A DNA stretch of 14,230 nucleotides, taken from an uncultured Candidatus Saccharibacteria bacterium. GTDB lineage: Bacteria; Patescibacteriota; Saccharimonadia; Saccharimonadales; Saccharimonadaceae. The stretch is from the NCBI GenBank assembly GCA_947364965.1, contig CANAUU010000017.1:1-14230 (forward strand). Direction: 5' to 3'. Below, piece after piece: positions 1 through 13,624 of this stretch. Within the stretch, counting starts at the first letter, position 1, and each line of letters starts with the position of its first letter. Position numbers and translations under genes: made by a program. The notes beneath the pieces are model-generated. The model ran no database searches and was not told where the DNA came from. It saw nothing but the letters and a program-made list of their open reading frames with translations.

Positions 1-127
1 AGCTTGGGCGAGCACCATTCTCGCTGTTGTCGCCCCAGGCTGAGACTAGGGAAGGAGTCACGACTGCGACACCCGCCACGGCTGTAGCGCCCGAAAGCAA
101 AGCAGCTAGTTTAGTAATTTTACGCAT
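1..127 (-). CDS. Secreted protein, N-terminal part (runs off the left edge)
   Basis: The reading frame starts at ATG 127-125, preceded at 8-nt spacing by an AGGAGA ribosome binding site (135-140), and stays open to the window edge, giving 42 residues. The start MRKITKL is followed by an Ala/Gly/Val-rich hydrophobic stretch and a likely signal-peptidase site after LVSA; the mature protein would begin with WGDNSENGARPS. A basic start, hydrophobic core and AxA-like cleavage site show that the product is exported by Sec. From memory, many Saccharibacteria secreted proteins have an AWG-type sequence right after the signal, which is one reason for the taxonomic guess. Nothing of the functional domain is visible. 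It is served by the promoter at 519-547 through a very long leader. Confidence 0.8.
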   Translation of the reverse strand, partial: MRKITKLAALLSGATAVAGVAVVTPSLVSAWGDNSENGARPS

Positions 128-512
128 TTGATATTCTCCTAATTAATTGTTTTGGCATCAATCGGCGTGATTGATACCAGTTAGTTGTCGGTGTTAATCT
201 TCGCGACTAGCACCGACCAGTTTATGACACTTTCATTGCGGTCAATGTCGACTGGTTTCAGCTTGAGGTAAGAACCGGTTATTAATGTTTAATTACGGTT
301 CTCATTTATATTCTTGGCTGAGGGACTGACTTTACGAACTGGCTTTTCGTGGTCTGATTTGTGGCTTGCCGTAATTTGATTATTATATTTTGGCTCAACC
401 TTGTCTACCTTTCGGCTAATCCCCTACTCTGGGAAATTACGATATTGGAGTAGGTCCCACGCTTTTTCAAGCTCGTTATTGTAAAGTTTCTGATAACCTA
501 TTTCAAGGTTAT
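128..512 (-). promoter_or_regulatory. Long structured 5' leader of the secreted-protein gene
   Basis: About 385 nt lie between the predicted transcription start (near 512) and the ATG at 127, with no convincing gene. Inverted repeats able to form hairpins: CCTACTC (423-429) with GAGTAGG (448-454); AGAACCG (271-277) with CGGTTCT (296-302); GTCGGTG (187-193) with CACCGAC (211-217); ATCAATC with GATTGAT (about 157-175). The last sits just upstream of the ribosome binding site at 135-140. A riboswitch, a protein-binding leader or an mRNA stabiliser are all possible; I recognise no known riboswitch core. Confidence 0.4.
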
Positions 513-518
513 GCTATC

Positions 519-547
519 ATTGTAGCACACCATAACCTTTTTGTCAA
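519..547 (-). promoter_or_regulatory. Sigma70-type promoter for the secreted-protein gene
   Basis: On the minus strand, TTGACA (547-542), a 17-bp spacer and TACAAT (524-519), with TGTGC just before the -10. This is a near-consensus promoter and has the same TGTGC extension as the promoters at 5794-5822, 13590-13618 and near 5716. Transcription should start close to 512. Confidence 0.8.
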
Positions 548-724
548 TACTTTTATGTTTTTTCGGGGGCTTAGCAAGGTTTTTATATGGATTTTTGATA
601 ATTGGCAATGGTTTTGTATGAATATTGGTGGTTTAGCAAGGTGTTTATGAGCATATCGATAATTTGGCAAGGATTTGCGGATAAACTGGGTATTTTGCAA
701 GCATAGACAAGAAGGCTCTGGACG
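541..724. repeat. Degenerate tandem array, 30-31 bp period (TTNGCAA units)
   Basis: On the plus strand the heptamer TTNGCAA recurs at 571 (TTAGCAA), 602 (TTGGCAA), 633 (TTAGCAA), 664 (TTGGCAA) and 694 (TTTGCAA), that is at steps of 31, 31, 31 and 30 bp. A weaker unit (TTGTCAA) at 541 overlaps the -35 box of the minus-strand promoter. Most units continue with a G/T-rich run such as GGTTTTTATATG. The period is close to three helical turns, so the motifs would lie on one face of the helix. The array sits directly upstream of the promoter at 519-547. One DnaA-box-like TTATCCGCA (minus, 684-676) lies within it. There are no unique spacers, so it is not a CRISPR array. Confidence 0.6.
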
Positions 725-797
725 ATATGTCCTCTGTAAGAACTGTTTGTCCCCTATTGGAGTAGCTATTATATTCCACGGTGGCAGATCGTTATGC

Positions 798-826
798 TTG
801 ACTTTTAGAGTATTGTGTGATACAAT
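798..826 (+). promoter_or_regulatory. Promoter for the 913-1716 secreted-protein gene
   Basis: TTGACT (798-803), a 17-bp spacer ending in TGTGTGA and TACAAT (821-826). The leader of about 80 nt contains a small hairpin, TCCCAT (841-846) with ATGGGA (852-857), and leads to the ribosome binding site at 898-903. The region 725-797 between the tandem array and this promoter shows nothing else I recognise. Confidence 0.75.
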
Positions 827-912
827 AGGGGTGTGTTAAGTCCCATATTTAATGGGATGAGGCATGGACTTTGTCAGCACTATCCCAAAAAATTGAAAGG
901 AAGATGATTCAA

Positions 913-1716
913 ATGAAGAAGTCCAAGCGTATCCTGTCCTATCTGCTGTGCCTGGTGATGGTTTTCGGGTTCACGGCGGCGGCTTATGCGGCCGATGCCA
1001 AAGACACGGCGCCGAACTCTGGCACCGTGGTCGGCGACGAGGTGACGAGAGTGCCGGATGGCCCCTGCACTGCGCCGCCGTCTGTGGAGCAGACGGTTCC
1101 TGACGAGCTGCCGACGACGGTCGGCCTCAGTATCGGCACGCTGAACGCGTATTCGATGGAATACGAGCGCTGCTACTTCGACCCGGAGCTGGAGTCGCTG
1201 ATGGCAGTTTTCCGCTTGAGCGACGCTGGCAAGATTCAGGCTCTGTTCGACTATTGTCCGCCGGCTTACCGGTTATCGGACGAGTTAGCACGCCTGAAGG
1301 CGGCCAAAGCTGGCTCCACTGAGTACACACTGGCAAAGCTGGACGTGGCCGAGATTCTGAACGACCTGCTCATGAACGCGGGCGGCGGTCCGGATTATCG
1401 CTTTGTTCCCTACGGGGAGCTGATCGACACGGCGGCTGAAGTCATTCAGACCGAGGAATTCAAGAAGCTCGTGACGACGCTGACGCCGGTTGCGGAACTG
1501 GAGGCGGAGGGCGGAAAGCTCGACGCACGGTCGCTAATGCTGGTCTTCACGCCCGAGGAGCTGGCGGGAATCTACACAGATTTGCGTGCGGTGGTCTATG
1601 GCGAGTACAGCCTGCGGCTGGACTGGTTGGATGAGATGGAGTTCTCGCTGGCGATTCCGCTGAAGGCGGAGGAAGGCGTAAGCTCTGGTCACGATTCGGC
1701 GCCGGCGTGCAGCTGA
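913..1716 (+). CDS. Secreted protein of unknown function with a Firmicutes-like signal peptide
   Basis: The predicted product is 267 aa. I choose ATG 913 because AGGAAG (898-903) is well spaced from it and because MKKSKRIL followed by a hydrophobic core and AAAYAAD is a textbook Sec signal peptide; an in-frame TTG at 871 and ATG at 904 are less likely. The mature part is acidic and mostly helical in appearance, with four cysteines (in DGPC, YERC, FDYC and the terminal PACS) that could form two disulfides outside the cell. I do not recognise the family. The gene stands alone, with its own promoter (798-826) and terminator (1791-1823). Its GC-rich third positions and its signal peptide, which resembles those of gut Clostridia, differ from the AWG-type protein at the left edge, so acquisition from a Firmicutes-like source is possible but unproven. 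Confidence 0.8.
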   Translation: MKKSKRILSYLLCLVMVFGFTAAAYAADAKDTAPNSGTVVGDEVTRVPDGPCTAPPSVEQTVPDELPTTVGLSIGTLNAYSMEYERCYFDPELESLMAVFRLSDAGKIQALFDYCPPAYRLSDELARLKAAKAGSTEYTLAKLDVAEILNDLLMNAGGGPDYRFVPYGELIDTAAEVIQTEEFKKLVTTLTPVAELEAEGGKLDARSLMLVFTPEELAGIYTDLRAVVYGEYSLRLDWLDEMEFSLAIPLKAEEGVSSGHDSAPACS

Positions 1717-1790
1717 GGATTCTCACAGCAGCGGTTTCAGAACTCCTCATGGCTGGCGATGAGCCGGCCTGCGGCCAAGGGTTAGTGCAA

Positions 1791-1823
1791 AGGGTCTCCC
1801 CGTGTGGGGAGACCCTATTTTTT
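1791..1823 (+). terminator. Strong intrinsic terminator
   Basis: A perfect 11-bp stem, AGGGTCTCCCC (1791-1801) with GGGGAGACCCT (1806-1816), closes a GTGT loop and is followed by A and six T. It ends the 913-1716 transcript. On the minus strand the T-run is too short for it to serve leuS well. Confidence 0.92.
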
Positions 1824-1899
1824 GATTTTCGCTCTGTTGTTTATAGATCGAGGGTGGCGAATGAGCTGGTGTGTGGCTCGATTTTTGTGCGATTTAGTT

Positions 1900-4542
1900 T
1901 TAGACGACAATGTTGATGAGTTTGGCGCCTTTCGGGACGATGACCTTGCGGATTTCCTTGCCGGCGATGAACTTTTGGACGTTCCCTTCGGCGAGAGCGA
2001 GTGCTTGGAGCTGGTCGGCGTCGCCGAGCAGGTCGGGCGAGACCGAGAGTTTGCCGCGAAGCTTGCCGTTGACTTGGATGACTACTTCAACCGTATCGGC
2101 AGCAAGGGCGGATTCGTCCCAAGTCGGCCAGACATCGTCTGCACCGAGTTTTTCGAGCATTTCGGAGGCAAGGTGCGGAGCAAAAGGCTTCAAGAGTTTC
2201 GCGAGGGCAACCTTATCCTCTTCGAGCGGCGCGGCAAAGATATTATTGACGAATTCCATGAGGGCGGCGACGGCGGTGTTGAAGCTGCAGCGGTGGATGT
2301 CTTCGGTGACCTTCTTGATGGTTTTGTGACGGATAACCGTAGAAGAGGCGGCCCCACTCATTGCGCGTCCTTCGGACACGCTCCGGGCCGCTCTGGCCGA
2401 GTCTTCATGTCCCGCAGCACCCGAACGAACGGGCTCGTCCCCGTCTACACTTTCTTCGTTATCATTTTTGAAACAAATGGTCCAGCAGCGGTTCAGGAAG
2501 CGATAAACTCCGCCGATAGCCTCGGTGTTCCAGGCGGCGTCTTGGTCGTAGGGGCCGATGAACATTTCGTAGGTGCGGAGAGTGTCGGCACCGTAGCCGC
2601 TGTCGATGACCTCGAGCGGGTCAATGACGTTTCCCTTCGACTTGGACATTTTCTTGCCGTCGGGGGCGTTGATATAACCATTATAGAGGAGCTTCTTGAT
2701 AGGCTCGCGGAAGGGCAAGTAGCCTTGGTCGGCGAAGAATTTGCACCAGAAGCGGATATATAAGAGATGAGCGACGGCATGGTCGCCGCCGACATAGATG
2801 TCGGTCGGGGCCCAATATTTAATTGCTTCGGAGTCCCAGGCAGCGTCCTCGTCGTGCGGACTGACATAGCGCCAGAGATACCAGGAGGAGCAAGCGTAGC
2901 CGTCGAGCGTGTCGGTCTCGCGGGCGCACTCAATATCATTGCCATTTTCGTCTTTCAGAGTGACTTTGAGCCAGTCCTTGGCCTTGGCGAGCGGTGAATG
3001 ACCGGTGTCGTCAGGCTTGTAATCTTCGATTTCGGGGTGGATGACGGGAAGTTGGTCTTCGGGGATTGGATGAGCGTTGCCGTCTTTGTCGTAAGCGATT
3101 GGAATTGGGCAACCCCAGTAGCGCTGGCGAGAAATCAGCCAATCACGCATTTTATAGGTGACTTTCGGGCGACCAAGTCCGCGTTCTTCGAGCCAGGCGA
3201 CGATTTGCTCGCGAGCGTCTTCGGTGCGGGTGCCGTTGAATTGGGCGGAATTGACAAGGACGCCTTCGCCGTGATAGAAACGGCTGCTTTCTGAACTGTC
3301 GTCTGGGGCTTCGACGACTTGGATGACGGGGAGATCAAACTTCTCAGCAAACTCAAAATCGCGATCATCGTGGGCCGGCACAGCCATGATGGCACCGGTG
3401 CCGTAGCCGCTCAAGGCATAATCAGCAACCCAGATGGGGATTTTTTCGCCACTGGCAGGGTTAATCGCGTAGCTGCCGGTGAAGACGCCGGTTTTTTCCT
3501 TGTTTTCTTGGCGCTCAATTTCGGATTTCTTGAGAGCATCCTGGCAGTATTGTTTGACTTTCTCGGCGGTCGAGTCAATGACGAGGTCGTTAATTAGCGG
3601 GTGTTCCGGGGCAAGGACGAGGAAGGTTGCGCCGAAGAGGGTGTCGGGACGGGTGGTGAAGACCGTAATGATATCCTTGCGGGACAAAGCGCCGTCTGCG
3701 CGTCCTTCGGACACGCTCCGGGCCGCTCTGGCCAAGTCTTCATGTTCCGCAGCACCCGAACCGGCGCTCTGCCCCACCGTTTGTTCATCATTGCCCGCGT
3801 TGGCGCTCCGACTCGTCGCCCGTTCATCACGAGCAATTTGAAACCCAACTTCGGCGCCTTCGGAGCGGCCGATCCAGTTTTTCTGCATGGTTTTGATCTT
3901 GTCGGGCCAGTCGAGAGCGTCGATGCCGTCGAGTAGTTCGTCGGCATAGGCAGTGATTTTGAAGAACCATTGCTTCATTTTCTTCTTTTCGACTTCATGG
4001 CCGCAGCGCCAGCAATGACCGTTTTCGACCTGTTCGTTAGCAAGGACGGTTTGGTCGACTGGGCACCACCACTGATACGACTCTTTCTGATAGGCGAGGC
4101 CGGCTTTGTAGAGCTGGAGGAAGCACCACTGGGTCCATTTATAATACTCGGGGTCGGAGGTGTTGATTTCACGACTCCAGTCGATAGCGTAGCCGAGCTT
4201 TTGGGCTTGCTTGCGGAAATTGGCGATATTGGTCGCGGTCGCGTTCTGGGGAGAAATACCGGTTTTGATGGCGTAATTCTCGGCGGGGAGACCGAAGGTG
4301 TCATAGCCGAAGGGGCGCAGGACATTCATTTCCTGCTGAGTATAGAAGCGGGCGAGGACGTCGACGATGGTAAAGTTGCGGACATGGCCGACGTGGAGAC
4401 CGGCGCCGGAAGGGTAGGGGAACATTTCGGCGAGGTATTTTTTGGGTTTTTGCTCGTCGAGCGGACCGGCCTTGAAAGCCTCGGTTTCGGCCCAGATTTT
4501 TTGCCATTTTTGTTCAATTTTCAGCGGGTCATATCTATCCAT
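1900..4542 (-). CDS. leuS: Leucyl-tRNA synthetase with two inserted repeat-derived segments
   Basis: 880 aa class I synthetase that charges tRNA-Leu in the cytoplasm. Visible landmarks in order: HVGH (residues 50-53, the HIGH motif); a zinc-ribbon-like CPVDQ...HCWRCGHE; NWIGRSEGAEV entering the CP1 editing domain; TTRPDTLFGATF and GTGAIMAVPAHDDRDF of the editing site; RDWLISRQRYWGCPIP; KMSKS (631-635); and a C-terminal anticodon-binding region ending in NGKLRGK and a KxIVPKGKLINIVV-like tail. The catalytic, editing and C-terminal parts look complete. Two stretches do not belong to the family: about residues 237-289 at the start of the editing domain and about 695-733 after the catalytic core. 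Each contains the same 22-residue repeat-encoded sequence. No Shine-Dalgarno precedes ATG 4542; the -10 box ends 7 nt upstream, so the mRNA is probably leaderless. Identity is very secure. Confidence 0.97.
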   Translation of the reverse strand: MDRYDPLKIEQKWQKIWAETEAFKAGPLDEQKPKKYLAEMFPYPSGAGLHVGHVRNFTIVDVLARFYTQQEMNVLRPFGYDTFGLPAENYAIKTGISPQNATATNIANFRKQAQKLGYAIDWSREINTSDPEYYKWTQWCFLQLYKAGLAYQKESYQWWCPVDQTVLANEQVENGHCWRCGHEVEKKKMKQWFFKITAYADELLDGIDALDWPDKIKTMQKNWIGRSEGAEVGFQIARDERATSRSANAGNDEQTVGQSAGSGAAEHEDLARAARSVSEGRADGALSRKDIITVFTTRPDTLFGATFLVLAPEHPLINDLVIDSTAEKVKQYCQDALKKSEIERQENKEKTGVFTGSYAINPASGEKIPIWVADYALSGYGTGAIMAVPAHDDRDFEFAEKFDLPVIQVVEAPDDSSESSRFYHGEGVLVNSAQFNGTRTEDAREQIVAWLEERGLGRPKVTYKMRDWLISRQRYWGCPIPIAYDKDGNAHPIPEDQLPVIHPEIEDYKPDDTGHSPLAKAKDWLKVTLKDENGNDIECARETDTLDGYACSSWYLWRYVSPHDEDAAWDSEAIKYWAPTDIYVGGDHAVAHLLYIRFWCKFFADQGYLPFREPIKKLLYNGYINAPDGKKMSKSKGNVIDPLEVIDSGYGADTLRTYEMFIGPYDQDAAWNTEAIGGVYRFLNRCWTICFKNDNEESVDGDEPVRSGAAGHEDSARAARSVSEGRAMSGAASSTVIRHKTIKKVTEDIHRCSFNTAVAALMEFVNNIFAAPLEEDKVALAKLLKPFAPHLASEMLEKLGADDVWPTWDESALAADTVEVVIQVNGKLRGKLSVSPDLLGDADQLQALALAEGNVQKFIAGKEIRKVIVPKGAKLINIVV
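2362..2426 (-). repeat. Gene-embedded small repeat, copy A (within leuS)
   Basis: 65 bp matching copy B (3697-3761) at 63 of 65 positions, in the same orientation and same reading frame. It encodes LeuRS residues about 706-727 (core ARAARSVSEGRA). In the leuS sense, GCGTGTCC-GAA-GGACGCGC forms an 8-bp hairpin with one G-U pair, and GGCC-AGAGC-GGCC a second one. It lies between the catalytic core and the helical domain that begins HKTIKKVTEDIHR, a place where linkers vary in LeuRS. Confidence 0.85.
3697..3761 (-). repeat. Gene-embedded small repeat, copy B (within leuS)
   Basis: The second 65-bp copy differs from copy A at only two positions (offsets 37 and 49), both non-synonymous (Leu for Ser, Glu for Gly). 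It encodes residues about 261-282 in an insertion of roughly 50 residues between EVGFQIA and DIITVFTTRPDT. It is bracketed by a perfect 7-bp inverted repeat, AGCGCCG (3688-3694) and CGGCGCT (3762-3768), which copy A lacks. Confidence 0.85.
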
Positions 4543-4549
4543 GGTTCAA

Positions 4550-4578
4550 ATTATACTTTATCTCGAGGGTTTTCGCAA
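4550..4578 (-). promoter_or_regulatory. leuS promoter (leaderless start)
   Basis: TTGCGA (4578-4573), a 17-bp spacer and TATAAT (4555-4550) on the minus strand. Only TTGAACC separates the -10 from ATG 4542, so transcription would begin at or next to the start codon. The gap 4543-4632 also holds a short CCCC-TGC-GGGG hairpin downstream of the 4633-5571 gene, a weak terminator at best. Confidence 0.75.
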
Positions 4579-4632
4579 GGCGGCGCGGTATGAAATTGCC
4601 CCGCAGGGGTTGGCTGCGAGGCGGATAAAGTG

Positions 4633-5571
4633 CTAGAGGTTTTTCTGTGATTTGAACATAGCCAGTGAGCGACTGGCACGGGCGCGTTCCTGCTCGAGGG
4701 AGCCACGTTCGTCGGAGCTAGTGAACTTGCGCCAAGCCTTCTGGAAGATGTTAAGCTTCTGATAGCTTGCGGTGGCTTGTTGGAGTTTCTCTTCGATCTC
4801 GGCAAGATTTTCCTCGAGACGTTCGAGTTCAGCCTGTTCGTCCACCTTTACGCGCTCAGCCCATGTATCGGCAGCTTTGCGTTCCAGTTCGGTTAGTTTC
4901 TTGCTTGTATCGAGATCGGCGAAGCGCTGAGCTTTATCGATTGCTTGGTTGAATGCCTGTAAGTCCGAGTAATCACTGCTAAGATTGGCGGCTCTTTCTC
5001 CCAACGCTTCTAGGTCGACCACTGGCAATTCGATGCTTTCTTCGGCTCCATCCTCGAGGTAGTTATTCTGCTGGTTCTGCAGGCGGAGCTGTTCCCGCTT
5101 CGCGATGTCGGCATTGTACTCTTGAAGCTTCCAGCCGCTCACGATCATGCCGTCGCCGGCTTCTGCGGCGCCAAGAATATGCATTCCGGTGTTTTCGCCG
5201 CTTAACCGACCGCGGTTAATCTCCAACATAAACGCTTCTTGCTGAACACTTTCCGGAGCAGCGTCGAGGTCAGGATAGGCACTTGCGATATAAACTAGGC
5301 GCTTCGTCATCTGATTGAACTGGTCACGATTGCGTTCGAGCTGTACTTCTGGGTCATCTAGGTCGAGCGTCTCACTCGTGCTTTCTGGCGTGTCTGAACC
5401 AGTTTCGACGGCTTCTAAATCGTTTAACCCTCCGGGTGTTTCGGACGTTTCTGGCAACGGTGTTTCAGCTGGCGAGGTTTCGCCGAAGTCCGGAACATTT
5501 GCCATAGCTTCCGCCCAAGGATTATCATTGCCGCCTCCGTACGCTTCAGGATTTTTAAGTTGCTCGCTCAT
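4633..5571 (-). CDS. Hypothetical protein with disordered N-terminus and C-terminal coiled coil
   Basis: 312 aa from ATG 5571, which has GAGAGG (5582-5577) at 5-nt spacing; an upstream in-frame start at 5628 would lie inside the leader structure and is rejected. There is no signal peptide or membrane segment. Residues about 20-80 are rich in Pro, Thr, Ser and Glu and look unstructured. The middle has a compact-looking stretch (QLERNRDQFNQMTKRLVYIA and on). From about residue 190 on the sequence is charged and heptad-like (AELERLEENLAEIEEKLQQA), then ends with the basic segment FQKAWRKFTSSDERGSLEQ. A cytoplasmic scaffold or structural role would fit, but I do not recognise the family. It has its own promoter and a complex leader that suggests regulated expression. 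Confidence 0.82.
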   Translation of the reverse strand: MSEQLKNPEAYGGGNDNPWAEAMANVPDFGETSPAETPLPETSETPGGLNDLEAVETGSDTPESTSETLDLDDPEVQLERNRDQFNQMTKRLVYIASAYPDLDAAPESVQQEAFMLEINRGRLSGENTGMHILGAAEAGDGMIVSGWKLQEYNADIAKREQLRLQNQQNNYLEDGAEESIELPVVDLEALGERAANLSSDYSDLQAFNQAIDKAQRFADLDTSKKLTELERKAADTWAERVKVDEQAELERLEENLAEIEEKLQQATASYQKLNIFQKAWRKFTSSDERGSLEQERARASRSLAMFKSQKNL

Positions 5572-5709
5572 TTTTACCTCTCTTTCCGCCACAACAAAAA
5601 TGCGGCTATTTACTAGTCGCGAAACCAAACAGCTTCTCGTTTACGAAAAACTGCGCAAATAGCCGCATAATTCTCATAAACGAGCTGGGTTAAAACTGTT
5701 TGATTTCGC
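5572..5709 (-). promoter_or_regulatory. Attenuator-like 5' leader with competing stems and a small ORF
   Basis: Order in the minus-strand transcript: C' (5709-5696), B' (5684-5677), A' (5668-5657), B (5643-5636), C (5632-5619), A (5611-5600). C'/C is a 14-bp stem with one G-U pair (GCGAAATCAAACAG with CTGTTTGGTTTCGC) and B'/B an 8-bp stem (CTCGTTTA with TAAACGAG); together they form one long arm that traps A' in its loop. A'/A is a perfect 12-bp stem (ATGCGGCTATTT with AAATAGCCGCAT) followed by TTTTTGTTG, as in a terminator. The two foldings cannot both form as simple stems. A 23-codon ORF (ATG 5677, TAG ending 5606; five Phe codons) runs across A', B, C and into A. I know of no named riboswitch with this layout. 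Confidence 0.55.
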
Positions 5710-5715
5710 AATTCT

Positions 5716-5726
5716 ATTATAGCACA
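5716..5726 (-). promoter_or_regulatory. Extended -10 promoter of the coiled-coil gene
   Basis: TGTGC directly followed by TATAAT (5721-5716) on the minus strand. No good -35 box is present at 17 bp. The start site would be near 5709, exactly at the first base of leader arm C'. Confidence 0.65.
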
Positions 5727-5793
5727 GCGGGGGGAGATTTAGGGATTTTTGGTGCTCCAGGGCAGTGGCGGAGCTTGGCGTTAGGCAAAATGC

Positions 5794-5822
5794 TTGACTT
5801 TTTATGAAATGTGTGCTATAAT
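5794..5822 (+). promoter_or_regulatory. Promoter of the 5966-6322 gene
   Basis: TTGACT (5794-5799), a 17-bp spacer ending TGTGTGC and TATAAT (5817-5822). It is divergent from the promoter near 5716. It resembles the promoter at 13590-13618 beyond the boxes: both have TTGACTTTTT at the -35, TGTGCTATAAT at the -10 and AAGTATAGG just after it. Confidence 0.88.
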
Positions 5823-5828
5823 GGAAGT

Positions 5829-5965
5829 ATAGGCTGTTTTCTGACGGCTTATGTACCTAGGAATGTTGGTTTTTGGTGTCTTTCGGAGTTGTTCAACTAT
5901 TCCCTGAGCCTAGATAAGTTCGCTGCGTTTTAGAAATCTATATCAGATACAGGAGGGGCTATAAA
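5829..5965 (+). promoter_or_regulatory. Structured 5' leader of the 5966-6322 gene
   Basis: About 137 nt of leader. GGAATGTTG (5860-5868) pairs with CAAC-T-ATTCC (5894-5903), nine pairs with one bulged T, flanked outside by GGCT (5846-5849) with AGCC (5907-5910). A small ORF MYLGMLVFGVFRSCSTIP (ATG 5851, stop 5905-5907) covers the hairpin but has no visible ribosome binding site. The main gene has AGGAGGGG at 5951-5958. Confidence 0.4.
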
Positions 5966-6322
5966 ATGAAGCAAATCTCGGCTTTACCCAGCATCACGTT
6001 TGATGAGGTCAGTGAAGGTTTCACAATCATTGGATTCGATTTCAAAGTCGTTGACACGTCCTCTGCCTCGTTTATCGAGGTGAAAGAGAAAATTGAGGCG
6101 AGGTCGCACGACACGTTGAGGGTTGATTATGCCTTAGGAAATGGGATAATTTTCCTGACGACGAATCTGGCAATTCATACGAGCGACACGACCTACACGA
6201 AGAACATGGCGATCAAGGATCTCGCGCTCACCGTGCGAAACAACTGCGCTCAATGCGCGGGGAAAGCTGATAGAAATTTTGAGGTATTCTTGACCGACGT
6301 TCAACTCGGCTGCGCACCCTAG
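5966..6322 (+). CDS. Small hypothetical protein (118 aa)
   Basis: Starts at ATG 5966 behind a strong AGGAGGGG ribosome binding site. There is no signal peptide or transmembrane segment, so it should be cytoplasmic. The sequence alternates short beta-like stretches (FTIIGFDFKVVD, GIIFLTTNLAIHT, NFEVFLTDVQLG) with polar loops, suggesting a small beta-rich fold. It has three cysteines (NNCAQC and the C-terminal GCAP); the CxxC could bind a metal but there is no second pair. Family not recognised. It is a single-gene transcript with a strong promoter, a structured leader and a terminator that overlaps its stop codon, which suggests a well expressed, possibly regulated product. Confidence 0.8.
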   Translation: MKQISALPSITFDEVSEGFTIIGFDFKVVDTSSASFIEVKEKIEARSHDTLRVDYALGNGIIFLTTNLAIHTSDTTYTKNMAIKDLALTVRNNCAQCAGKADRNFEVFLTDVQLGCAP

Positions 6323-6338
6323 CGCAGCCTTTCTTTTT
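6308..6338 (+). terminator. Intrinsic terminator overlapping a stop codon
   Basis: A perfect 8-bp stem, GGCTGCGC (6308-6315) with GCGCAGCC (6322-6329), loop ACCCTA and tail TTTCTTTTT. The stop TAG (6320-6322) of the 118-aa gene lies in the loop and the first base of the 3' arm, so the last codons are themselves the 5' arm. Confidence 0.9.
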
Positions 6339-6339
6339 G

Positions 6340-6348
6340 TGATAGAAT
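6340..6348 (+). promoter_or_regulatory. Extended -10 promoter for the 6357-8249 pair
   Basis: TGA-TAGAAT: an extended -10 whose hexamer (6343-6348) ends 8 nt before ATG 6357. There is no clear -35 because the preceding terminator occupies that position. The GGAAGT that follows matches the bases after the -10 at 5817-5822. With leuS it is the second case of a -10 placed for a leaderless mRNA. Confidence 0.55.
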
Positions 6349-6356
6349 GGAAGTTA

Positions 6357-7661
6357 ATGAGAGTAGGTGAAAGGTATTCGAGTGCTGACGCTCCGTTGGC
6401 TCCCTCGGAGGGTAGTAATGAGAGGACGGCGTCATTGAAGGTGGGTGAGCAGGCTTCGAGCCAGCGAAGCCGGGAGGGGTGGCAAGGGATTGGTCGACGA
6501 GCTATGCGGTCGGGGCGGCGAGCTGCCGGCGAAAGTGCTGAGGAAAGTTTTGATGCCGGCTGGCAAAAGCGAATGGGCGAATTTCAGGATATTTACGATC
6601 AAGAGACGATTGAACGCGACATTCGCTACGTTGAGCGGACCGAGCGGAGCTTTGCGCCCGAGGGCGAAAGGCGAAAGAGCGCATCAAAGAGGTTTGAGGA
6701 ATTGTTTTTGACAGGGGTGCGGCGTGGGCGATGGCTGGGCGATATCGCGCAAGCGGCTGACGGGGAGGCGCCTTTCCGGGTGAGCGCGGAACCGGCAACA
6801 AAGTTTGACGATTTTACACATCGGGTCGATGCCTATGCAACTCTGCATTTTCGGGAGCCGCTTGAGGATGAAGAGACCGAGATGACGCTTGAGCGAGCGC
6901 ATATGGGGTTTGATGTGACCTTGAACGGCGATTACGGCGCCGTGATGGACAAATTGACACGCAGTTGCAATGATGGGGCACGGATGCCTTTTGGGTTTTC
7001 GAGTTTGAAATATTACGACGATGACGGCGAACATGGCAGTGTGGGGATGCTGCCGAGGTATATGATTGGAGTGAGCGGGTATGACATGCGGGACGCTATC
7101 AGAGCAGCGACGAAGGATGAACGAACTGGACAGATTAGGGATTTTGGGCTGTATTCTGGACGTAATTTGGCGAGTCGTTTTAAGGTTTTGTCGGAAATTC
7201 GGGCGGAAAATGTCTTATATCAGGCCATGCTGCCGGATGAGTTGGATACGCCTGAGCTGAAGCTGGCAAGTGCGCAGCTTTATGCGGTCGACCAAGAGCT
7301 AAATTCGGCGCTGGCGGCATGCACGAAAGAATTAGTGGTCAGGAAGGCATTACCTCAGCATATTTTGGCGGAAATTGAGCGTGCGTCGCAGGGGCAAGGT
7401 GGACAGGGCGGTTTGCTGGGAGCACGGAAGATTATTGAGGAATTTTACTTAAAGCAGGGGCGCTTGAATTTTCAAGAGGAGCGACAGCGGCGAGAAAGGT
7501 GGCAAGGCTATCCCGATAGCGGCGATTCGGCCCATCCGGTGCAAGATACGTTCGTGCAGATTATGGACTGCTGCCGCGAGCTGACTGAAATGGCATACCG
7601 AGGCGAGCTGAACAACTACCGCGCACCTCAAGCAAGAAACAGATCAATTAAACGGGGTTAG
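6357..7661 (+). CDS. Hypothetical protein, probably lineage-specific (434 aa)
   Basis: I prefer ATG 6357, positioned for leaderless translation from the -10 at 6343-6348; GTG 6339 is also in frame but lies upstream of any likely transcript start, and ATG 6502 or 6571 would drop the low-complexity beginning. No signal peptide or membrane segment. The first 50-70 residues are polar, repetitive and rich in Ser, Arg, Glu and Gly. The folded part seems to begin at MGEFQDIYDQETIERDIRY, with later landmarks FREPLEDEETEMTLERAHMG, SGRNLASRFKVLSEIRAENV and a helical C-terminus with QIMDCCRELTEMAYRGELNN. No catalytic motif is recognisable. The methyltransferase starts 21 bp after its stop, so the two are probably cotranscribed. 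A second Arg/Glu/Ser-rich segment (TERSFAPEGERRKSASKR) interrupts an otherwise ordinary sequence and may be another repeat-derived insertion. Confidence 0.78.
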   Translation: MRVGERYSSADAPLAPSEGSNERTASLKVGEQASSQRSREGWQGIGRRAMRSGRRAAGESAEESFDAGWQKRMGEFQDIYDQETIERDIRYVERTERSFAPEGERRKSASKRFEELFLTGVRRGRWLGDIAQAADGEAPFRVSAEPATKFDDFTHRVDAYATLHFREPLEDEETEMTLERAHMGFDVTLNGDYGAVMDKLTRSCNDGARMPFGFSSLKYYDDDGEHGSVGMLPRYMIGVSGYDMRDAIRAATKDERTGQIRDFGLYSGRNLASRFKVLSEIRAENVLYQAMLPDELDTPELKLASAQLYAVDQELNSALAACTKELVVRKALPQHILAEIERASQGQGGQGGLLGARKIIEEFYLKQGRLNFQEERQRRERWQGYPDSGDSAHPVQDTFVQIMDCCRELTEMAYRGELNNYRAPQARNRSIKRG

Positions 7662-7682
7662 TTGTTGCGCTTTGGGGTTGGA

Positions 7683-8249
7683 ATGGAAATTATTACGGTT
7701 TTACATAATATCCGATCGGTTTATAACGTGGGAGCGATTTTGCGCACCTGCGAGGGGTTGGGGGTTTCGCGAGCGGTGTTTTCGGGGTATACGCCGAAAT
7801 ATAATGATGCCGATTTGCTGCCGCATTTGCGGGAGAAGTTGAACCGGCAGATTGAAAAGTCGGCGCTGGGAGCGGAGAAGATGGTACCACAGGAGACGGT
7901 GGCGGATTTGCCGGGGTGGTTAGCGGAGAAGCGCGCGGCGGGATGGATGGTTATCGGGCTGGAGAATAATTTGGCGCCAGAGGAGATGGGGCGACGCTGG
8001 GTGCTTGGGGAGAGTAGGCAGAGATTGGTTGAAACGGGAGTAATGCCGGCGAAGCTCGGGCGAGTGATTTTGATTCTCGGAGAGGAAGTGAATGGCATTC
8101 CGGAGGAGGTACGGCGCGAGATGGAAGTTTTTCTGGAGATTCCGATGCGGGGGCGGAAGGAGTCTTTCAATGTGTCGGTCGCGACTGGGATTGCGCTCTG
8201 GGGGATTGAACAGGTTGCGAAGGAAAGTCATGGTGAAGGAAAGGCATAA
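7683..8249 (+). CDS. TrmH/SpoU-family RNA 2'-O-methyltransferase
   Basis: 188 aa SPOUT-class enzyme expected to transfer a methyl group from S-adenosylmethionine to a ribose 2'-OH in tRNA or rRNA. The three family motifs are present: NIRSVYNVGAILRTCEGLG (residues 9-27, with the motif 1 Arg at 21), VILILGEEVNGIP (128-140), and IPMRGRKESFNVSVATGIAL (153-172), which builds the knotted cofactor site. There is no extra N-terminal substrate-binding domain, so it is of the minimal TrmL/SpoU size. I start at ATG 7683, where the conserved domain begins; a TTG at 7662 is in frame. The substrate cannot be told from sequence alone. It lies 21 bp after the preceding gene and before a terminator, so it closes that operon. 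Confidence 0.92.
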   Translation: MEIITVLHNIRSVYNVGAILRTCEGLGVSRAVFSGYTPKYNDADLLPHLREKLNRQIEKSALGAEKMVPQETVADLPGWLAEKRAAGWMVIGLENNLAPEEMGRRWVLGESRQRLVETGVMPAKLGRVILILGEEVNGIPEEVRREMEVFLEIPMRGRKESFNVSVATGIALWGIEQVAKESHGEGKA

Positions 8250-8295
8250 CGAGGGCTAGGTAGCCCGCGGAGATGGGATTGGCGAAAGCCGAAAA

Positions 8296-8326
8296 CACCG
8301 CCCAGCACAGTTGGCTGGACGGTTTT
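8296..8326 (+). terminator. Intrinsic terminator after the methyltransferase
   Basis: ACCGcCCAGC (8297-8306) pairs with GCTGGaCGGT (8314-8323), nine pairs with one C-A mismatch, followed by TTTTT. It separates this operon from the convergent gene at 8364-9005. Confidence 0.8.
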
Positions 8327-8340
8327 TAGGGATGTGATTA

Positions 8341-8384
8341 CTTATGGTGTATAGGCTGGCTCCTCATGGTATATAGGTCGGCTC
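8341..8384. repeat. 22-bp imperfect tandem duplication across a stop codon
   Basis: 8341-8362 and 8363-8384 match at 18 of 22 positions (core ATGGTRTATAGG). The copy at 8363-8384 encodes the C-terminus EPTYIP and the TGA stop of the minus-strand gene; the other lies just beyond the stop in the +1 frame and would read EPAYTP then stop. Confidence 0.7.
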
Positions 8385-9005
8385 GGGCTGGAACTCATCG
8401 AGGGACGGCACGTGCCAGTCAAAATTGCCGGTAGGGGCACCGTGAAGGGTCTCAGTGAACCGGACAGAATGGGCGCCTTTTTTGGAGCTACAGCTCATCG
8501 CGTAATCGATATGCCAGTTCAACTCGGGAATGTCGAAATTGAGACCGAGAGAGGCTGGCGAAATCAGGTAGGCGTAAGCGCAGCTGCGGAAATGCCCGAT
8601 TGAGCCGAATTCGGTGCCGCCGGCGCGGTAGTAGCGCTCATCACAGCTCGCGGCGTAAACGTAGTAGAGCTTCAGCCGACCAACGTAGAAATCAACGCGC
8701 CAGAGCGCCCAATCCGGGTTCCGACCGGTAATTACGTCCGGCAACTGATACCCAAAACTAGGCACGCCCTTGGGTTCGGCGACGGTACACTCGCATAGCA
8801 CCCTGTTGACTTCTTCGGACGGGGCGATAGTGCAATCGCGCAGTACGGCTTCGGCGTTTTCTCGGCTCTTTTCCGTAGTGCAGTACATTGGTGACAGGCT
8901 CATCTGGATGGTGGGTAGTTTACGGATGACGTCGAGCGACGGAATCCTCTCGGAATTGGCCGCCGTCATCACGCGCAAACATTGTTCGGATAATGGTTTA
9001 TACAC
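8364..9005 (-). CDS. Hypothetical protein (213 aa, Cys- and Tyr-rich)
   Basis: Begins with GTG 9005, chosen because AAGGAGGT lies 8 nt upstream (about 9013-9020) and no better start exists nearby. No signal peptide or transmembrane segment. The central part is rich in aromatic residues (WALWRVDFYVGRLKLYYVYAASCDERYY), suggesting a beta-rich core. About ten cysteines are spread along the chain, including CEC and two SC pairs, without a recognisable metal-binding pattern. Family not recognised. It has a separate promoter (near 9175) and a structured leader, so it seems to be its own transcript after the LOG gene. The C-terminus lies in a tandem duplication with the next 22 bp, so its length may differ between strains. 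Confidence 0.75.
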   Translation of the reverse strand: MYKPLSEQCLRVMTAANSERIPSLDVIRKLPTIQMSLSPMYCTTEKSRENAEAVLRDCTIAPSEEVNRVLCECTVAEPKGVPSFGYQLPDVITGRNPDWALWRVDFYVGRLKLYYVYAASCDERYYRAGGTEFGSIGHFRSCAYAYLISPASLGLNFDIPELNWHIDYAMSCSSKKGAHSVRFTETLHGAPTGNFDWHVPSLDEFQPEPTYIP

Positions 9006-9021
9006 GATTTAGACCTCCTTT

Positions 9022-9168
9022 TCTGGGGATTCGGGATTGTTGGGGCGTTGGTGTGGGGACTGGATGACTGGATGCGGAATGTCGGGTTTTAAGCTCACGA
9101 GTGACCGCGCTTTTAGCTAGAACATAAAATAATCACGAAAAGTGCGCGCTCTCCCAAGCGGGGTCGCA
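9022..9168 (-). promoter_or_regulatory. Structured 5' leader of the 8364-9005 gene
   Basis: About 150 nt between the promoter and the ribosome binding site. Near its 5' end GTGCGaCCCC and GGGAGagcgCGCAC can pair (GTGCG with CGCAC, CCC with GGG), and GTCACTCGTGAGC forms a second small hairpin about 60 nt later. No leader ORF or known riboswitch core is recognised. Confidence 0.3.
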
Positions 9169-9174
9169 CCTCTT

Positions 9175-9183
9175 ATTATAACA
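9175..9183 (-). promoter_or_regulatory. Extended -10 promoter
   Basis: On the minus strand TGT-TATAAT (9183-9175), with a weak ATAACA at -35 distance. It lies between the LOG gene and the hypothetical at 8364-9005. Confidence 0.5.
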
Positions 9184-9248
9184 TAGGTTTGCGCTTGTGT
9201 TATCTCGACGAGTGGGTTTATCTATAGTCTGCCGCTCAATGGACGGGG

Positions 9249-9980
9249 CTATTTTACAATCCGCTCATGTTCCGGGAGTTCGGGGATGTCGGACTGAGCA
9301 CTGAAACCATCGTAATAGTTAGTCTTGATGGGGGGATGACCAATTTTGTTGGCGGCTTTGACGATTTCGTTGACGTCGTCGGTTAATTTATAGATGTTAG
9401 TGTCGTTCTTGGCGATGAGGCCGAGCGGGAGCATTTTAGTCTGGAAGAATTTATCAAGCGAACGCCAGAAGCTTTTGCCGAAAAAGAAGACTGGCATCTT
9501 GGGCATTTTGCCTTCCTGCATGAGAATGATGATTTCGGAGAGTTCATCGAGAGTACCAAAACCACCGGGGAAGAAAACGTAGACTTTGGCGGACATGGCG
9601 AGCATGACTTTGCGAGCGAAGAAATATTTGAAGTTCATGGTGTCGGTGAGGTAGGGATTCGGGAATTGTTCGTGGCGAAGGGTGATGTTGAGCCCGATGC
9701 TTTTGCCGCCATATTCGAAGGCGCCGTGATTGGCGGCTTCCATGATGCCAGGACCACCGCCGGTAATAACGGCGTGACCGTTCTGGGCGAGGAGCTGGCC
9801 GAGCTCGCGGGCTTTTTTACAATATTTGCTGTCTTGAGCGAGGCGAGCAGAGCCGAAAATCGTGACACCCTGCGGATAAGTGCGGACGATTTTGAGGCCA
9901 CGTTCGAGATCGTTAGCATAAGCCTTGGCGCGTTCAATATCGGCTTGTTCTAGTTGTTTGAGGACTTCTTCGTCGAGCAT
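9249..9980 (-). CDS. LOG-family protein (nucleotide 5'-monophosphate phosphoribohydrolase-like)
   Basis: 243 aa with a Rossmann-type fold. Family motifs: VTIFGSARL (39-47), VITGGGPGIMEAANHGA (71-87) and PGGFGTLDE (138-146), the phosphate-binding and catalytic signature of LOG/YgdH/Rv1205-type proteins, with the ARK (122-124) that usually precedes it. In characterised LOG enzymes this motif releases ribose 5-phosphate and a free base from nucleoside monophosphates (cytokinin precursors in plants). In bacteria without cytokinins the natural substrate is often unknown; nucleotide salvage is a reasonable inference here. AGAAAGG stands before ATG 9980. It follows the pfkB-family gene by 100 bp on the same strand; released ribose 5-phosphate would connect with rpiB/rpe upstream, though this link is inference. 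Confidence 0.9.
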   Translation of the reverse strand: MLDEEVLKQLEQADIERAKAYANDLERGLKIVRTYPQGVTIFGSARLAQDSKYCKKARELGQLLAQNGHAVITGGGPGIMEAANHGAFEYGGKSIGLNITLRHEQFPNPYLTDTMNFKYFFARKVMLAMSAKVYVFFPGGFGTLDELSEIIILMQEGKMPKMPVFFFGKSFWRSLDKFFQTKMLPLGLIAKNDTNIYKLTDDVNEIVKAANKIGHPPIKTNYYDGFSAQSDIPELPEHERIVK

Positions 9981-10080
9981 AATTTCCTTTCTGTATATTT
10001 AATTATCCGGTTCGGCGGTTTCGAAACCTTTGAGGTTTTAGAGTCGTCCGCGCGCTCGCGCACGCTGAACCCTGAGTCTC

Positions 10081-11061
10081 TCAAGTCCAACCTGCCAAAT
10101 CTTCGACTTTTTGAATTGGCATAAGATGGGAATCTTCGTCACCGGTCAGGATGCCAGTTTCGGCACCATATTCTCTAGCGACCTTGGCGGCATTAGCGGA
10201 GGCGAATTTGAGAGATTGCTCGAAATCACCATTATCTGCAAAACTGGCTAGGAAGCCGGAGCCGAAGGCATCACCGACACCAGTCGCGTCGCGAACACGG
10301 ATTTGTTCATAAACTCCGAAGCGATAGGTTTCGTGATGATTGGTAGCAATAGCACCCATGGAGCCGTCGGTGATGATAACCGTTTCGCAATAGTTTGAGA
10401 GATGCGCCAAAAGTTCCGTCAAGAGGACGCCGGGGACGATCTGGGCGGCTTCTTTCTTATTGACGAGAAGAATATCGACGTCGTCGAGCAGGCCGATGAG
10501 TTTTTCGGGCTGTTTTAATTCGTCGGGGCCGGGGTTAAACATAACTTTTGCTTGGATAGCGTGAGCTTTTTCAAAAAACTCAAGCAGCTTTTCCGTATTG
10601 CCATAGAGCGTGCCAGCATAGAGCCAGTCAGGTTGAATGAGGTCGAGATCGGCGGCGGATAAATTATCAGATTTAGCTGAGGCGCCGCGGAAATTCAAGA
10701 CGGTTTGGTCGCTAGACTTGGCGTCAAGCAAGATAACCGAACAACCAGTAGCGGTGCGGGTAAAGCTAGCATAACTGCTATCAATGTTTTCGGCGTCGAA
10801 GCATTGGAGAACGCTCTCGCCGGCGGCGTCATGAGCGAGATTGCCGAGGAATACCGTTTCATGACCACGACGGGCAAAAGTAACCGCAGCGTTAGCACCG
10901 CTGCCGCCGACGCCGAAAAAGGTCTTATCGATGTCAACTTCAGTACCGATGACCATCTTGCCGAAAATCGACTGGCCTTCGATTTCGAGACCTTCAAAAT
11001 CGTCGCGGTCGATTAGATAGATTTCTTGACGAGCTGGACCGAGAGAAACGATGCGACTCAT
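10081..11061 (-). CDS. PfkB/ribokinase-family sugar or nucleoside kinase
   Basis: 326 aa. The first PfkB signature, GVGGSGANAAVTFARRG (50-66), and the second, RDATGVGDAFGSGFL (257-271), are intact; in the second, Asp264 is the expected catalytic base next to the anion hole (GVGD). MFNPGPDEL and LLVNKKEA fit the usual middle part of the family. Members phosphorylate ribose, fructose, adenosine or similar compounds with ATP; the sequence does not say which. The start at ATG 11061 follows AAAGGGG at good spacing. It is the fourth gene of the likely gap-rpiB-rpe-kinase operon, 58 bp after the rpe-like gene, so a pentose or nucleoside substrate is plausible. The following 100 bp hold a GC-rich GCGC-GA-GCGC palindrome (about 10047-10057) but no convincing terminator. 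Confidence 0.9.
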   Translation of the reverse strand: MSRIVSLGPARQEIYLIDRDDFEGLEIEGQSIFGKMVIGTEVDIDKTFFGVGGSGANAAVTFARRGHETVFLGNLAHDAAGESVLQCFDAENIDSSYASFTRTATGCSVILLDAKSSDQTVLNFRGASAKSDNLSAADLDLIQPDWLYAGTLYGNTEKLLEFFEKAHAIQAKVMFNPGPDELKQPEKLIGLLDDVDILLVNKKEAAQIVPGVLLTELLAHLSNYCETVIITDGSMGAIATNHHETYRFGVYEQIRVRDATGVGDAFGSGFLASFADNGDFEQSLKFASANAAKVAREYGAETGILTGDEDSHLMPIQKVEDLAGWT

Positions 11062-11119
11062 AGTTTAGCCCCTTTCGGGAGAAGTTTGATCCGAGTGTGG
11101 GAGAAAGTCATACGAAGGA

Positions 11120-11767
11120 TCATACGAGGACGCCTTTCTTTTCGGATTCAGCAACGAGAGACTGATACATGGCGGCCTTATCTGCGGCGCGAGAGAGCGC
11201 ACTACCGACATTGACAACATCAATACCAGCGTGTGCGAGCGCGCGGACGTTGCTCAAATTCGAACCACCATCCCAGCCGATTTCGACGTCGGGTTTGATG
11301 GCGCGGATGAGGGGAACTTTCTCTACTTGAAGCATATCAATGTTGCCGCCCTGATGGCCAAGGTCGCCAGCAAAAATCATGACATGGTCGGCGTTTACGA
11401 TTAGCTCCTTGACCTTCCCGGGAAAGGTGCCTTTAAGGAGGGCGAGACCGACTTTGATGCCGGCATTATGAAGCTCGTTGGTAAGGCTGGCGAGGTCGTC
11501 GTTAACTTCGGCGTGTATGATGCAGAGGGACGGCTTCAGGGCAAGAATAGTCGCAAGATGATCGCTCGGGCGGGCCGACATGACGTGAATGTCGACATTA
11601 AGGCCTTCGGGAAACTGAACATTATTGATCGGCACGGTGGTCGAGGGAGCAAAAGTGCCGTCCGAGGCATCGATTTGGACACGGCGAGAAAAAGTCTTAT
11701 ATTCTTCAAGCTGTGCCTGAAAAACGGCGGGGTCATCGGTCAAAATAGCAGGGCAGATGACGGCCAT
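11120..11767 (-). CDS. rpe: Divergent ribulose-phosphate 3-epimerase-like protein
   Basis: 215 aa TIM-barrel protein. In order: CPAILTDD (usually PSILSAD), QIDASDGTFAPS (31-42, usually HxDVMDGxFVPN), DIHVMSARP (59-67), IIHAEV, GIKVGLAL, VMIFAGDLGHQGG (usually VMTVEPGFGGQ) and IGWDGGSN (163-170), ending with NVGSAL. The known enzyme converts ribulose 5-phosphate to xylulose 5-phosphate with a metal held by two His and two Asp. Here Asp33, His61 and Asp166 remain, but the first ligand His is Gln31, and the Met of DVMDG is Ser35. It may be an altered epimerase or act on another phosphosugar. The start ATG 11767 is one base after the rpiB stop, and its GAGGAAG ribosome binding site lies inside rpiB, so the two are translationally coupled. 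Confidence 0.82.
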   Translation of the reverse strand: MAVICPAILTDDPAVFQAQLEEYKTFSRRVQIDASDGTFAPSTTVPINNVQFPEGLNVDIHVMSARPSDHLATILALKPSLCIIHAEVNDDLASLTNELHNAGIKVGLALLKGTFPGKVKELIVNADHVMIFAGDLGHQGGNIDMLQVEKVPLIRAIKPDVEIGWDGGSNLSNVRALAHAGIDVVNVGSALSRAADKAAMYQSLVAESEKKGVLV

Positions 11768-11768
11768 T

Positions 11769-12224
11769 CTAGGCTTCCTCTAACTTTTTCATACGGCGAT
11801 GATAGCGCTCGTCAGTGAGCGGGTGTGCATGGCAGAAGGCTTTGACAATCTGTTCCATCGTTGCGACTTCAAGCTGGTCGGCGGACAGGCAAACGATGTT
11901 AGCCCAGTCGTGACCGCGACCCAACACTGCGTCTTCGGAGTCCTTAGCACAGACGGCACGAGCGCCTTTGATACGGTTAGCCTGAATACAAACTCCTTGA
12001 CCAGAGCCACAAAGTAAGACACCGAGCGCGTGCTCATCATCGGCAACAGCTTTGGCGACGGCTTTGGCAGGTTCGTTGAAATCATCGTTTTCGACGTATT
12101 CGCTCGCCCCGAGGTCTTGAATCTCAACCATGCCGGGATGGCATTGCTTAAGTAATTCAGCGAGTTCGTTCTTTTTCTGAAAGCCGCGATGGTCGGCGCC
12201 GAGATAGATTATGTGTTGTGCCAT
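11769..12224 (-). CDS. rpiB: Ribose-5-phosphate isomerase B (RpiB/LacAB family)
   Basis: 151 aa, the normal length for RpiB. It interconverts ribose 5-phosphate and ribulose 5-phosphate in the pentose-phosphate pathway. GADHRGFQKK (9-18) matches the usual GSDHAGFxxK phosphate/substrate site; GVLLCGSGQGVCIQANRIKGARA (68-90) holds the catalytic Cys72 in CGSGxG; HDWANIV (105-111) supplies the ring-opening His. The start ATG 12224 follows AAAAGG. It lies 66 bp after gap and its stop is one base from the next start, so gap, rpiB and rpe are probably one operon. The change from the common CGTG to CGSG is conservative. LacA/LacB subunits belong to the same family, but the context favours RpiB. Confidence 0.93.
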   Translation of the reverse strand: MAQHIIYLGADHRGFQKKNELAELLKQCHPGMVEIQDLGASEYVENDDFNEPAKAVAKAVADDEHALGVLLCGSGQGVCIQANRIKGARAVCAKDSEDAVLGRGHDWANIVCLSADQLEVATMEQIVKAFCHAHPLTDERYHRRMKKLEEA

Positions 12225-12267
12225 GTTTATGCCTTTTGTCCTTTCCTTACTGATTATCCTTCCTTTT

Positions 12268-12299
12268 GTCTGCTTTATCGTCCGTCTATCTTATCGTCC
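12268..12299. repeat. 16-bp tandem duplication at the end of gap
   Basis: 12268-12283 and 12284-12299 match at 13 of 16 positions (shared TTATCGTCC). The second copy contains the gap stop codon (12291-12293) on the minus strand. It resembles in kind the duplication at 8341-8384. Confidence 0.6.
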
Positions 12300-13289: not shown

Positions 13290-13435
13290 TTTGCCTCCCT
13301 TGTCATCTTACCTCGCTTTGTTATTTCTTGTTCCCTGTTGCTAGATGTCGAACGCGGCATTTCGTCTACAGCCTGCGGTTGTTTTCGGCTCTTTACTGCC
13401 GCCACTGAACCCAGTACAGGAACATACTTAGGTTT

Positions 13436-13618: not shown

Positions 13619-13624
13619 AAAAGT

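Follow-up and report, generated by a model that had tools for sequence, protein, structure and literature searches.

The window, that is, the whole stretch of DNA analysed here (14,230 nucleotides, positions 1 to 14,230 on the forward strand of contig CANAUU010000017.1, GenBank assembly GCA_947364965.1), comes from an uncultured Candidatus Saccharibacteria bacterium and contains, on its minus strand, a gene for leucyl-tRNA synthetase (LeuRS) in which a small repeat occurs twice (Table 1). The two 65-bp segments, referred to as copy A and copy B, were found to be 63/65 identical (97%) and are both read in the LeuRS frame; each of the two nucleotide differences alters an amino acid, giving GAAGHEDSARAARSVSEGRA in copy A and GAAEHEDLARAARSVSEGRA in copy B. 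A 21-nt probe, CGTCCTTCGGACACGCTCCGG, matched twice in the window at up to 3 mismatches, compared with 0.00 matches expected from 200 shuffles. Upon alignment with the LeuRS of T. thermophilus, both segments fell where the ordinary enzyme is short or poorly aligned: at site 1 (copy B), residues 237 and 292 of the query align with residues 237 and 243, and at site 2 (copy A), the repeat lies in a weakly aligned stretch ahead of HKTIKKVTEDIH. These observations agree with a preliminary description of the pair, made from the letters of the window, which had placed two nearly identical in-frame peptides in LeuRS segments absent from ordinary family members. A structure model of the LeuRS had a pTM of 0.33 and a mean pLDDT of 52.5 and was not used.

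Table 1. Positions in the window of the LeuRS gene and of the two repeat copies within it.
Feature	Position	Strand	Basis
Leucyl-tRNA synthetase gene, 880 amino acids, host of both copies	1900..4542	minus	Open reading frame list; best PDB match T. thermophilus LeuRS, E 2.6e-214
Copy A, 65-nt repeat, site 2, loop before HKTIKKVTEDIH, peptide GAAGHEDSARAARSVSEGRA	2362..2426	minus	Open reading frame list, repeat list
Copy A, whole hairpin of about 93 nt, outer stem decayed	2347..2439	minus	Covariance model, E 4.1e-11; core without adjoining arm
Copy A, conserved tip motif	2379..2403	minus	Sequence compared with 50-copy alignment
Copy B, 65-nt repeat, site 1, start of editing-domain loop, peptide GAAEHEDLARAARSVSEGRA	3697..3761	minus	Open reading frame list, repeat list
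Copy B, whole hairpin of about 93 nt, surviving 14-bp stem (12 Watson-Crick, 2 G.T)	3682..3774	minus	Covariance model, E 1.1e-14; arm alignment; fold -53.9 kcal/mol
Copy B, conserved tip motif	3714..3738	minus	Sequence compared with 50-copy alignment

The repeat had also been described as forming hairpins in the mRNA sense. The minus strand folded with z-scores of -1.86 (copy A) and -2.72 (copy B), and 5/200 and 2/200 shuffles, respectively, folded as well; the plus strand folded less well (z-scores of -0.73 and -1.09). The structure in the mRNA sense was thus upheld, but the repeated unit of 65 bp had to be revised, as the covariance model placed each segment inside a hairpin of about 93 nt. 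The outer stem of this hairpin is not common to the two copies; site 1 keeps part of it, and site 2 has no stem beside the core.

A search of the window's own genome with 86 bases gave four places at E ≤ 10, namely the two LeuRS copies and the loci C68 and C50 (91% and 86% identical to copy B; the latter lies in frame within a gene that we take to be MnmA), and the covariance model added a fifth copy (C31:8025-8112), making five in total. Within the genus, whose genomes measure 0.3-1.2 Mb as binned, 51/99 genomes matched at E ≤ 1e-3, with up to at least nine matches per genome, since at most nine candidates were scored in any one genome. Under strict filters, a search of the phylum matched 6/286 genomes (3/247 genera), and three of these genomes belong to the window's own genus. 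In a scan of named genomes that returned at least 118 stretches, all of those listed belonged to Saccharibacteria (one Nanosyncoccus) or to Bifidobacterium/Bifidobacteriaceae, which leaves room for other hosts. The 77 distinct Saccharibacteria copies comprised 39 inside open reading frames (ORFs) of at least 180 codons and 38 that were not; L024, L027 and L033, which have long stop-to-stop frames, were counted as non-coding because they lie at the edge of the frame. Copies near the ends of loci were left out of the full set of 142. Viral contigs with the exact pattern numbered 0, and no phage matched. Three matches to Streptomyces plasmids (25/38 nt, E 0.4) were read as chance. Against Rfam 15, the window and nine hairpin loci (10 sources) gave only a tmRNA and a tRNA, and searches with two hairpins at E ≤ 10 returned 3 and 8 matches, none of which reached its gathering score.

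Comparison of the copies revealed a unit of about 92-99 bp: a stem of about 30 bp, of which the outer 16-25 bp are private to each copy, carries a tip of about 30-60 nt. We aligned 50 copies (35 from Bifidobacterium and 15 from Saccharibacteria) that were hand-picked from the 142, with worn copies, including those of the window, excluded. The alignment had 92 columns without gaps, in which column i pairs with column 93-i over 30 bp, and beyond this stem the tip, with two small helices, was nearly invariant. In the long helix, 28/32 pairs varied on both sides; 90.6% of the cells were nevertheless paired, with a covariation of 0.732, compared with 0.161 upon shuffling and no more than 0.167 when the partners were slid. 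In the sequence beside the core at 33 loci, the mean inverted-repeat score was 18.4, compared with 6.4 for mismatched pairs (maximum 19). The four copies first found in the window's own genome scored just 7-10, and the window copies belong among the worn ones. As for the coding copies, the arms were complementary at 15 or more of 18 positions in 32/39, compared with 0/1482 arm pairs taken across different copies; arms of different coding copies matched at a mean of only 6.6-6.9/18 (maximum 14), whereas the cores were 87% identical. The median length of the private arm was 19-21 bp in coding Saccharibacteria copies, counted past the shared inner stem, and 25 bp in Bifidobacterium. The stem is therefore self-complementary in most copies yet not shared between them, an exception being an intergenic Saccharibacteria subgroup with arms common between loci (e.g., L057, L075 and L108). 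The constant tip is probably a recognition site for a protein or enzyme.

The sites were compared in related proteins, where patterns could be read in 119/120 proteins for LeuRS site 1, 107/120 for LeuRS site 2, 12/120 for TyrRS and 119/120 for Der, and at 12/30 loci for TlyA and 25/30 for TsaD. The LeuRS closest by identity, that of genome G014 (97% over residues 1-238 and 89% over 290-880), shows a 17-residue loop at site 1, and its site 2 is without the repeat. The 17-residue loop was present at site 1 in 53 of the 119 proteins, a total in which the window's protein is counted; the element peptide occurred there in 3/119, one of the three being the window's, and at site 2 in the window's protein alone of 107. 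Two LeuRS proteins (P0005 and P0007) have 49 residues at site 1 in place of 17 (+32). Similarly, TyrRS has 56 residues compared with 23 in a relative of 90% identity (+33), and the missing residues include both arms. In Der, the element-bearing form has 81 residues against 49 (+32), a short form found in 23/119 proteins; 66 residues were present in 76/119, with another sequence in those displayed, and 57 in two, including P0146, which shares SPYDK with the edge of the right arm and relative to which the gain is just +24. The gains at the compared sites are whole codons, and those of 32 or 33 residues in LeuRS, TyrRS and Der speak for insertion of the hairpin as a whole.

An old internal duplication within LeuRS would account for the higher identity between the two LeuRS copies (63/65) than between copy B and the copies at C68 and C50. 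We consider it refuted, with hardly any credence left to it, because the element is dispersed and relatives have empty sites: copies were found across unrelated genes and genomes, the stretch shared by the LeuRS copies extends over 65 nt and no more, and G014 is without both. A dispersed element found in frame in conserved genes, with an empty site in LeuRS itself, sustains the earlier proposal of a mobile mini-element in a genome of the candidate phyla radiation that resembles the Rickettsia palindromic elements (RPEs).

The same loops hold other insertions. In TsaD, TlyA and LeuRS, they contain other, partly related palindromic families; further insert peptides observed in TsaD (L184-L213), TlyA (L214-L243) and LeuRS (P0001-P0120) included SDTLKGARPSL, PSSRGS, SPATAGADDA and RESPEATAEDEDAR, and some of these families have a common GACTTGGGC..GGAG tip. 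At one locus (L191), only TAAGACTTGGGC..GCCCCGGAGCG is kept between private arms of about 23 bp. The LeuRS site-1 loop carries an insert of 172-253 residues in many relatives (L162, L168 and L169; 21/119 proteins), and the longer LeuRS proteins carry a Nudix domain (PF00293). This loop is a general insertion hot spot. Beside copy B, a further stretch that looks like an insert (window positions 3790-3837; peptide RATSRSANAGND) has ends that are weakly complementary and is likewise absent from G014; it is perhaps an older, worn element.

The genes with in-frame copies include, as we recognise them, LeuRS, TyrRS, UvrA, Der, exonuclease I, GatA, TopA, TsaD, MutM, TlyA, PriA and presumably the MnmA gene mentioned above. 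Since the coding class was chosen by open frames, the openness of a frame is no evidence by itself; the use of the frames is more informative. Five of the six frames of the consensus are open, and the coding copies use them 22 (SAEHEDLARAARSVSEGHA), 14 (ACPSDTLRAALAKSSCSAE), 3, 0 and 0 times. Thus 36/39 of these copies use one or the other of two frames that mirror each other about the axis of the hairpin: turning the hairpin over about its axis maps frame SAEHEDLARAARSVSEGHA exactly onto ACPSDTLRAALAKSSCSAE, and 14/17 antisense copies are in the mirrored frame. We also found related in-frame hairpins at G047:C4:18299-18387 (L298) and G047:C14:21562-21650 (L300), in genes that we take to be QueA and LysRS, and a further hairpin at G047:C4:19195-19282 in a gene that looks to us like tRNA-guanine transglycosylase.

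An intron or a translational bypass, in which the segment is removed from the mRNA or skipped so that the protein is normal, would have a precedent in the palindromic elements of Magnusiomyces mitochondria, likewise long hairpins that interrupt many genes, here including essential ones; the passages of PMC6649704 drawn on here describe those elements, at second hand, as transcribed but untranslated. A removed segment needs neither a frame preference nor whole-codon gains, which counts against this explanation for an element that keeps the reading frame and has 36/39 copies in two of five open frames, and we regard it as very improbable. The inserts instead appear to be read as extra protein.

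In Der, a pair of sequences points to a change of orientation at one site. L008 reads GEPVAA|MCSAEHEDLARAARSVSEGHA|AAAGSP, and P0141 reads GEPAAA|ACPSDTLRAALAKSSCSAEH|VAATGSP, so that the arm peptides are alike around a sense tip in the former and an antisense tip in the latter (P0147 and P0178 are similar). The pair may be read as the tip having flipped in place.

Outside Saccharibacteria, the same hairpin was found in 31/31 Bifidobacterium genomes, picked because a locus of each had matched, with 2-61 copies in each. The ORF lists of Bifidobacterium are rich in long frames that arise by chance. In four species (L074, L086, L111 and L128), the ribosome-binding site of dnaJ is directly preceded by the hairpin, at one place; two of these species have one arm nearly exactly alike, and the remaining ones have a rewritten upper stem that still pairs. 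Among the stem mismatches of Bifidobacterium copies, G.U outnumbers A.C on the tip strand (60:17), which is the bias that selection acting on RNA (or single-stranded DNA) would be expected to give. The dnaJ hairpins and this bias would suit a structured RNA signal for processing, stability or translation control that is selected in mRNAs, is not selfish, and is tolerated or useful within genes. In the private arms of coding Saccharibacteria copies, the corresponding counts were 18:13 for the sense frame and 9:8 and 2:0 for the two antisense frames; these were used in place of counts with the shared inner stem still in (27:14 and 32:8; a further count made before its removal, 53:20, was likewise set aside), and they give little sign of selection on mRNA structure in these copies. 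As both orientations occur and the sites differ between species, we judge an RNA signal unlikely as the general explanation. The hairpin family is presumably common to Saccharibacteria and Bifidobacterium by horizontal transfer.

At least nine pairs of Bifidobacterium hairpins on opposite strands (L284-L292) were read, 135-187 bp apart from start to start with a variable linker. Several of them, compared by eye with regard to the shared terminal inverted repeats that mark MITEs, end in similar CAGCGGTGAC/GTCACCGCTG-like sequences. Together with the palindromic, dispersed nature of the element, its high copy numbers in the chosen Bifidobacterium genomes and a strong Y1_Tnp match in the window's own genome (G000:C6:3576-3932, L304; E 7.4e-39), these doublets resemble the REP/BIME/REPIN class, in which the hairpin would be the REP, the doublets would be REPINs and the mover would be RAYT, a Y1 HUH transposase. 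The stem sequence of REPs is conserved; that of the present hairpin varies, and it is the tip that is fixed. Moreover, Y1_Tnp was found in just 3/53 genomes (G000, G024 and G384; 2/33 Saccharibacteria and 1/20 Bifidobacterium), leaving 50/53 without it, and was absent from the genome with 61 copies (G388). RAYT was accordingly rejected as the mover, and an element of the REP/REPIN type seems to us a poor prospect, less likely than an RNA signal.

A reverse transcriptase was likewise rejected as the mover. RVT_1 was found in 22/53 genomes, and in Saccharibacteria it was present in 14/20 element-positive compared with 5/13 element-negative genomes; the 33 Saccharibacteria genomes searched for RVT_1 and Y1_Tnp were hand-picked from the 99, with element status taken from the genus search. 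It is not a consistent partner, because only 3/20 Bifidobacterium genomes, all of which carry the hairpin, have RVT_1. Reverse transcriptase matches are otherwise common in the genus (19/33 picked genomes; L308, L309, L311 and L313-L315). Among the ORF clusters listed around the 142 copies, no shared mobile gene travelling with the hairpin was evident, and the neighbourhoods were orthologous.

The explanation that we favour, with somewhat better than even confidence for the whole of it, is that both LeuRS segments arose by insertion of a single kind of small mobile hairpin, RPE-like and translated, the translation being suggested by frame preservation. The whole hairpin would be inserted by an enzyme, and the insertions that survive would be those in protein loops and in frames giving hydrophilic peptides. 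Since the arms are inverted repeats, the tip could flip in place, and the two-fold axis of the hairpin would turn a good frame into another open frame. Fold-back (template-switch) copying would make, perfect and extend the stem, sometimes into host codons, and this would explain why each copy has its own arms. In such copying, the tip hairpin would have its 3' end recessed and would be joined to a strand, whose copying it would prime; arms would then start at about equal offset on both sides, as they do in most copies. The near-fixed stem length suggests that an enzyme measures the stem. An unused stem would later decay, as in the window copies.

Several results weigh against this explanation. 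No mover was found by the Y1_Tnp, RVT_1 and neighbouring-ORF comparisons. The pairing figures of the 50-copy alignment describe well-kept copies, and 7/39 coding copies have no good arms (complementary at 2-9/18). The copies and genomes are not phylogenetically independent, and the p-values are therefore optimistic (5e-10 for a chi-square comparison of coding-frame use with equal use; 9e-7 for a two-sided sign test of the Bifidobacterium mismatches). The mirrored frame could be favoured by selection on the peptide alone, and the reading of the inserts as extra protein draws on frame preservation. Flipping rests on protein sequences, and the flipped Der form was not found in the DNA of the 30 Der loci from the genus search. 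The evidence on the origin of the arms also differs between genes. In TsaD, element-bearing segments have 56-63 residues compared with 37-39 in short ones (a gain of +17 to +26), and in L184 and L186 one arm holds the codons of the conserved FPLL, so that stems can extend into host sequence; this is unlike TyrRS, Der (relative to the 49-residue form) and LeuRS site 1, where both arms lie within the gained residues. A general rule that one arm is host flank and the other its copy was favoured at first and then limited because of those three sites. Capture of the arms from elsewhere was rejected, as arms matching elsewhere in 1.7 Mb showed no clear excess (5/39 outside an element context compared with 4/39 shuffled arms, the latter counted without the element-context filter; a sixth, L004, matched its own locus only).

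Known systems offer partial parallels. In the passages of PMC2229807 used here, RPEs are stem-loop repeats of 105-146 bp that lie between genes and are fused in frame in conserved genes, and an RPE-bearing Gmk stays active with altered substrate affinity; ten families are counted in the part of PMC10969869 that we cite, and protein-coding palindromes of Wolbachia form a parallel that is known here from a reference title. The present element is similar in having many dispersed copies, both between genes (38/77 lie outside ORFs of at least 180 codons) and inside unrelated genes (39/77), and in keeping the frame of conserved genes, where relatives differ by whole codons. In contrast, its copies share a consensus in the tip and inner stem only, and not a palindromic one across the full unit; we therefore do not file it as an RPE. 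Two mirror-image frames dominate here, the phyla are different, and the likeness is one of description, not of RPE sequence comparison. Coding palindromes in mitochondria of Nematomorpha are also inverted repeats in translated genes that are gained and lost between species, and template switching is proposed as one maker and maintainer of their arms; as described in the cited passages of PMC6649704, they differ in having up to 142 bp per arm and conserved residues encoded in both arms, and a constant tip goes unmentioned there. No description of the present element was found in open-licence papers, which does not prove its absence from print.

Relative to the preliminary description, what has been added are the copy-specific self-complementary stems, the two mirror-image frames and the same hairpin in Bifidobacterium. 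Saccharibacteria are epibionts of Actinobacteria. We suggest tentatively, and with more doubt than assent, that the hairpin represents a new class of mobile DNA in which only the tip is heritable, a fresh, self-complementary stem of near-fixed length is written at each insertion by fold-back copying of a strand nearby, the tip flips so that both orientations give tolerable protein in register, and the element has crossed between Actinobacteria (Bifidobacterium) and Saccharibacteria. In the cited passages of PMC10969869 and PMC2229807, translated mobile mini-elements belong mainly to Rickettsia, with a parallel in Wolbachia, and this would be another case. It occurs in a genus of small genomes, where the same loops harbour several palindromic families. 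The core genes hit include, by our own recognition, LeuRS, TyrRS, Der, TsaD, TopA and UvrA. The insertions offer a natural experiment in the gain of loops by proteins, and with them the idea that new coding sequence is written by hairpin-driven template switching could be tested directly, while the Bifidobacterium hairpin offers a cultivable system for seeking a tip-binding factor. For annotation, some inserts of 20-60 residues in conserved proteins would be mobile DNA.

Elsewhere in the window, the stretches at 5794-5840 and 13590-13636 are promoter-like and similar to each other (TTGACTTTTT..TGTGCTATAAT; 79% over 47 nt), and a third one, at 794-826, is weaker; positions 565-676 hold three imperfect repeats at a spacing of 31 nt (GGTTTAGCAAGG...).

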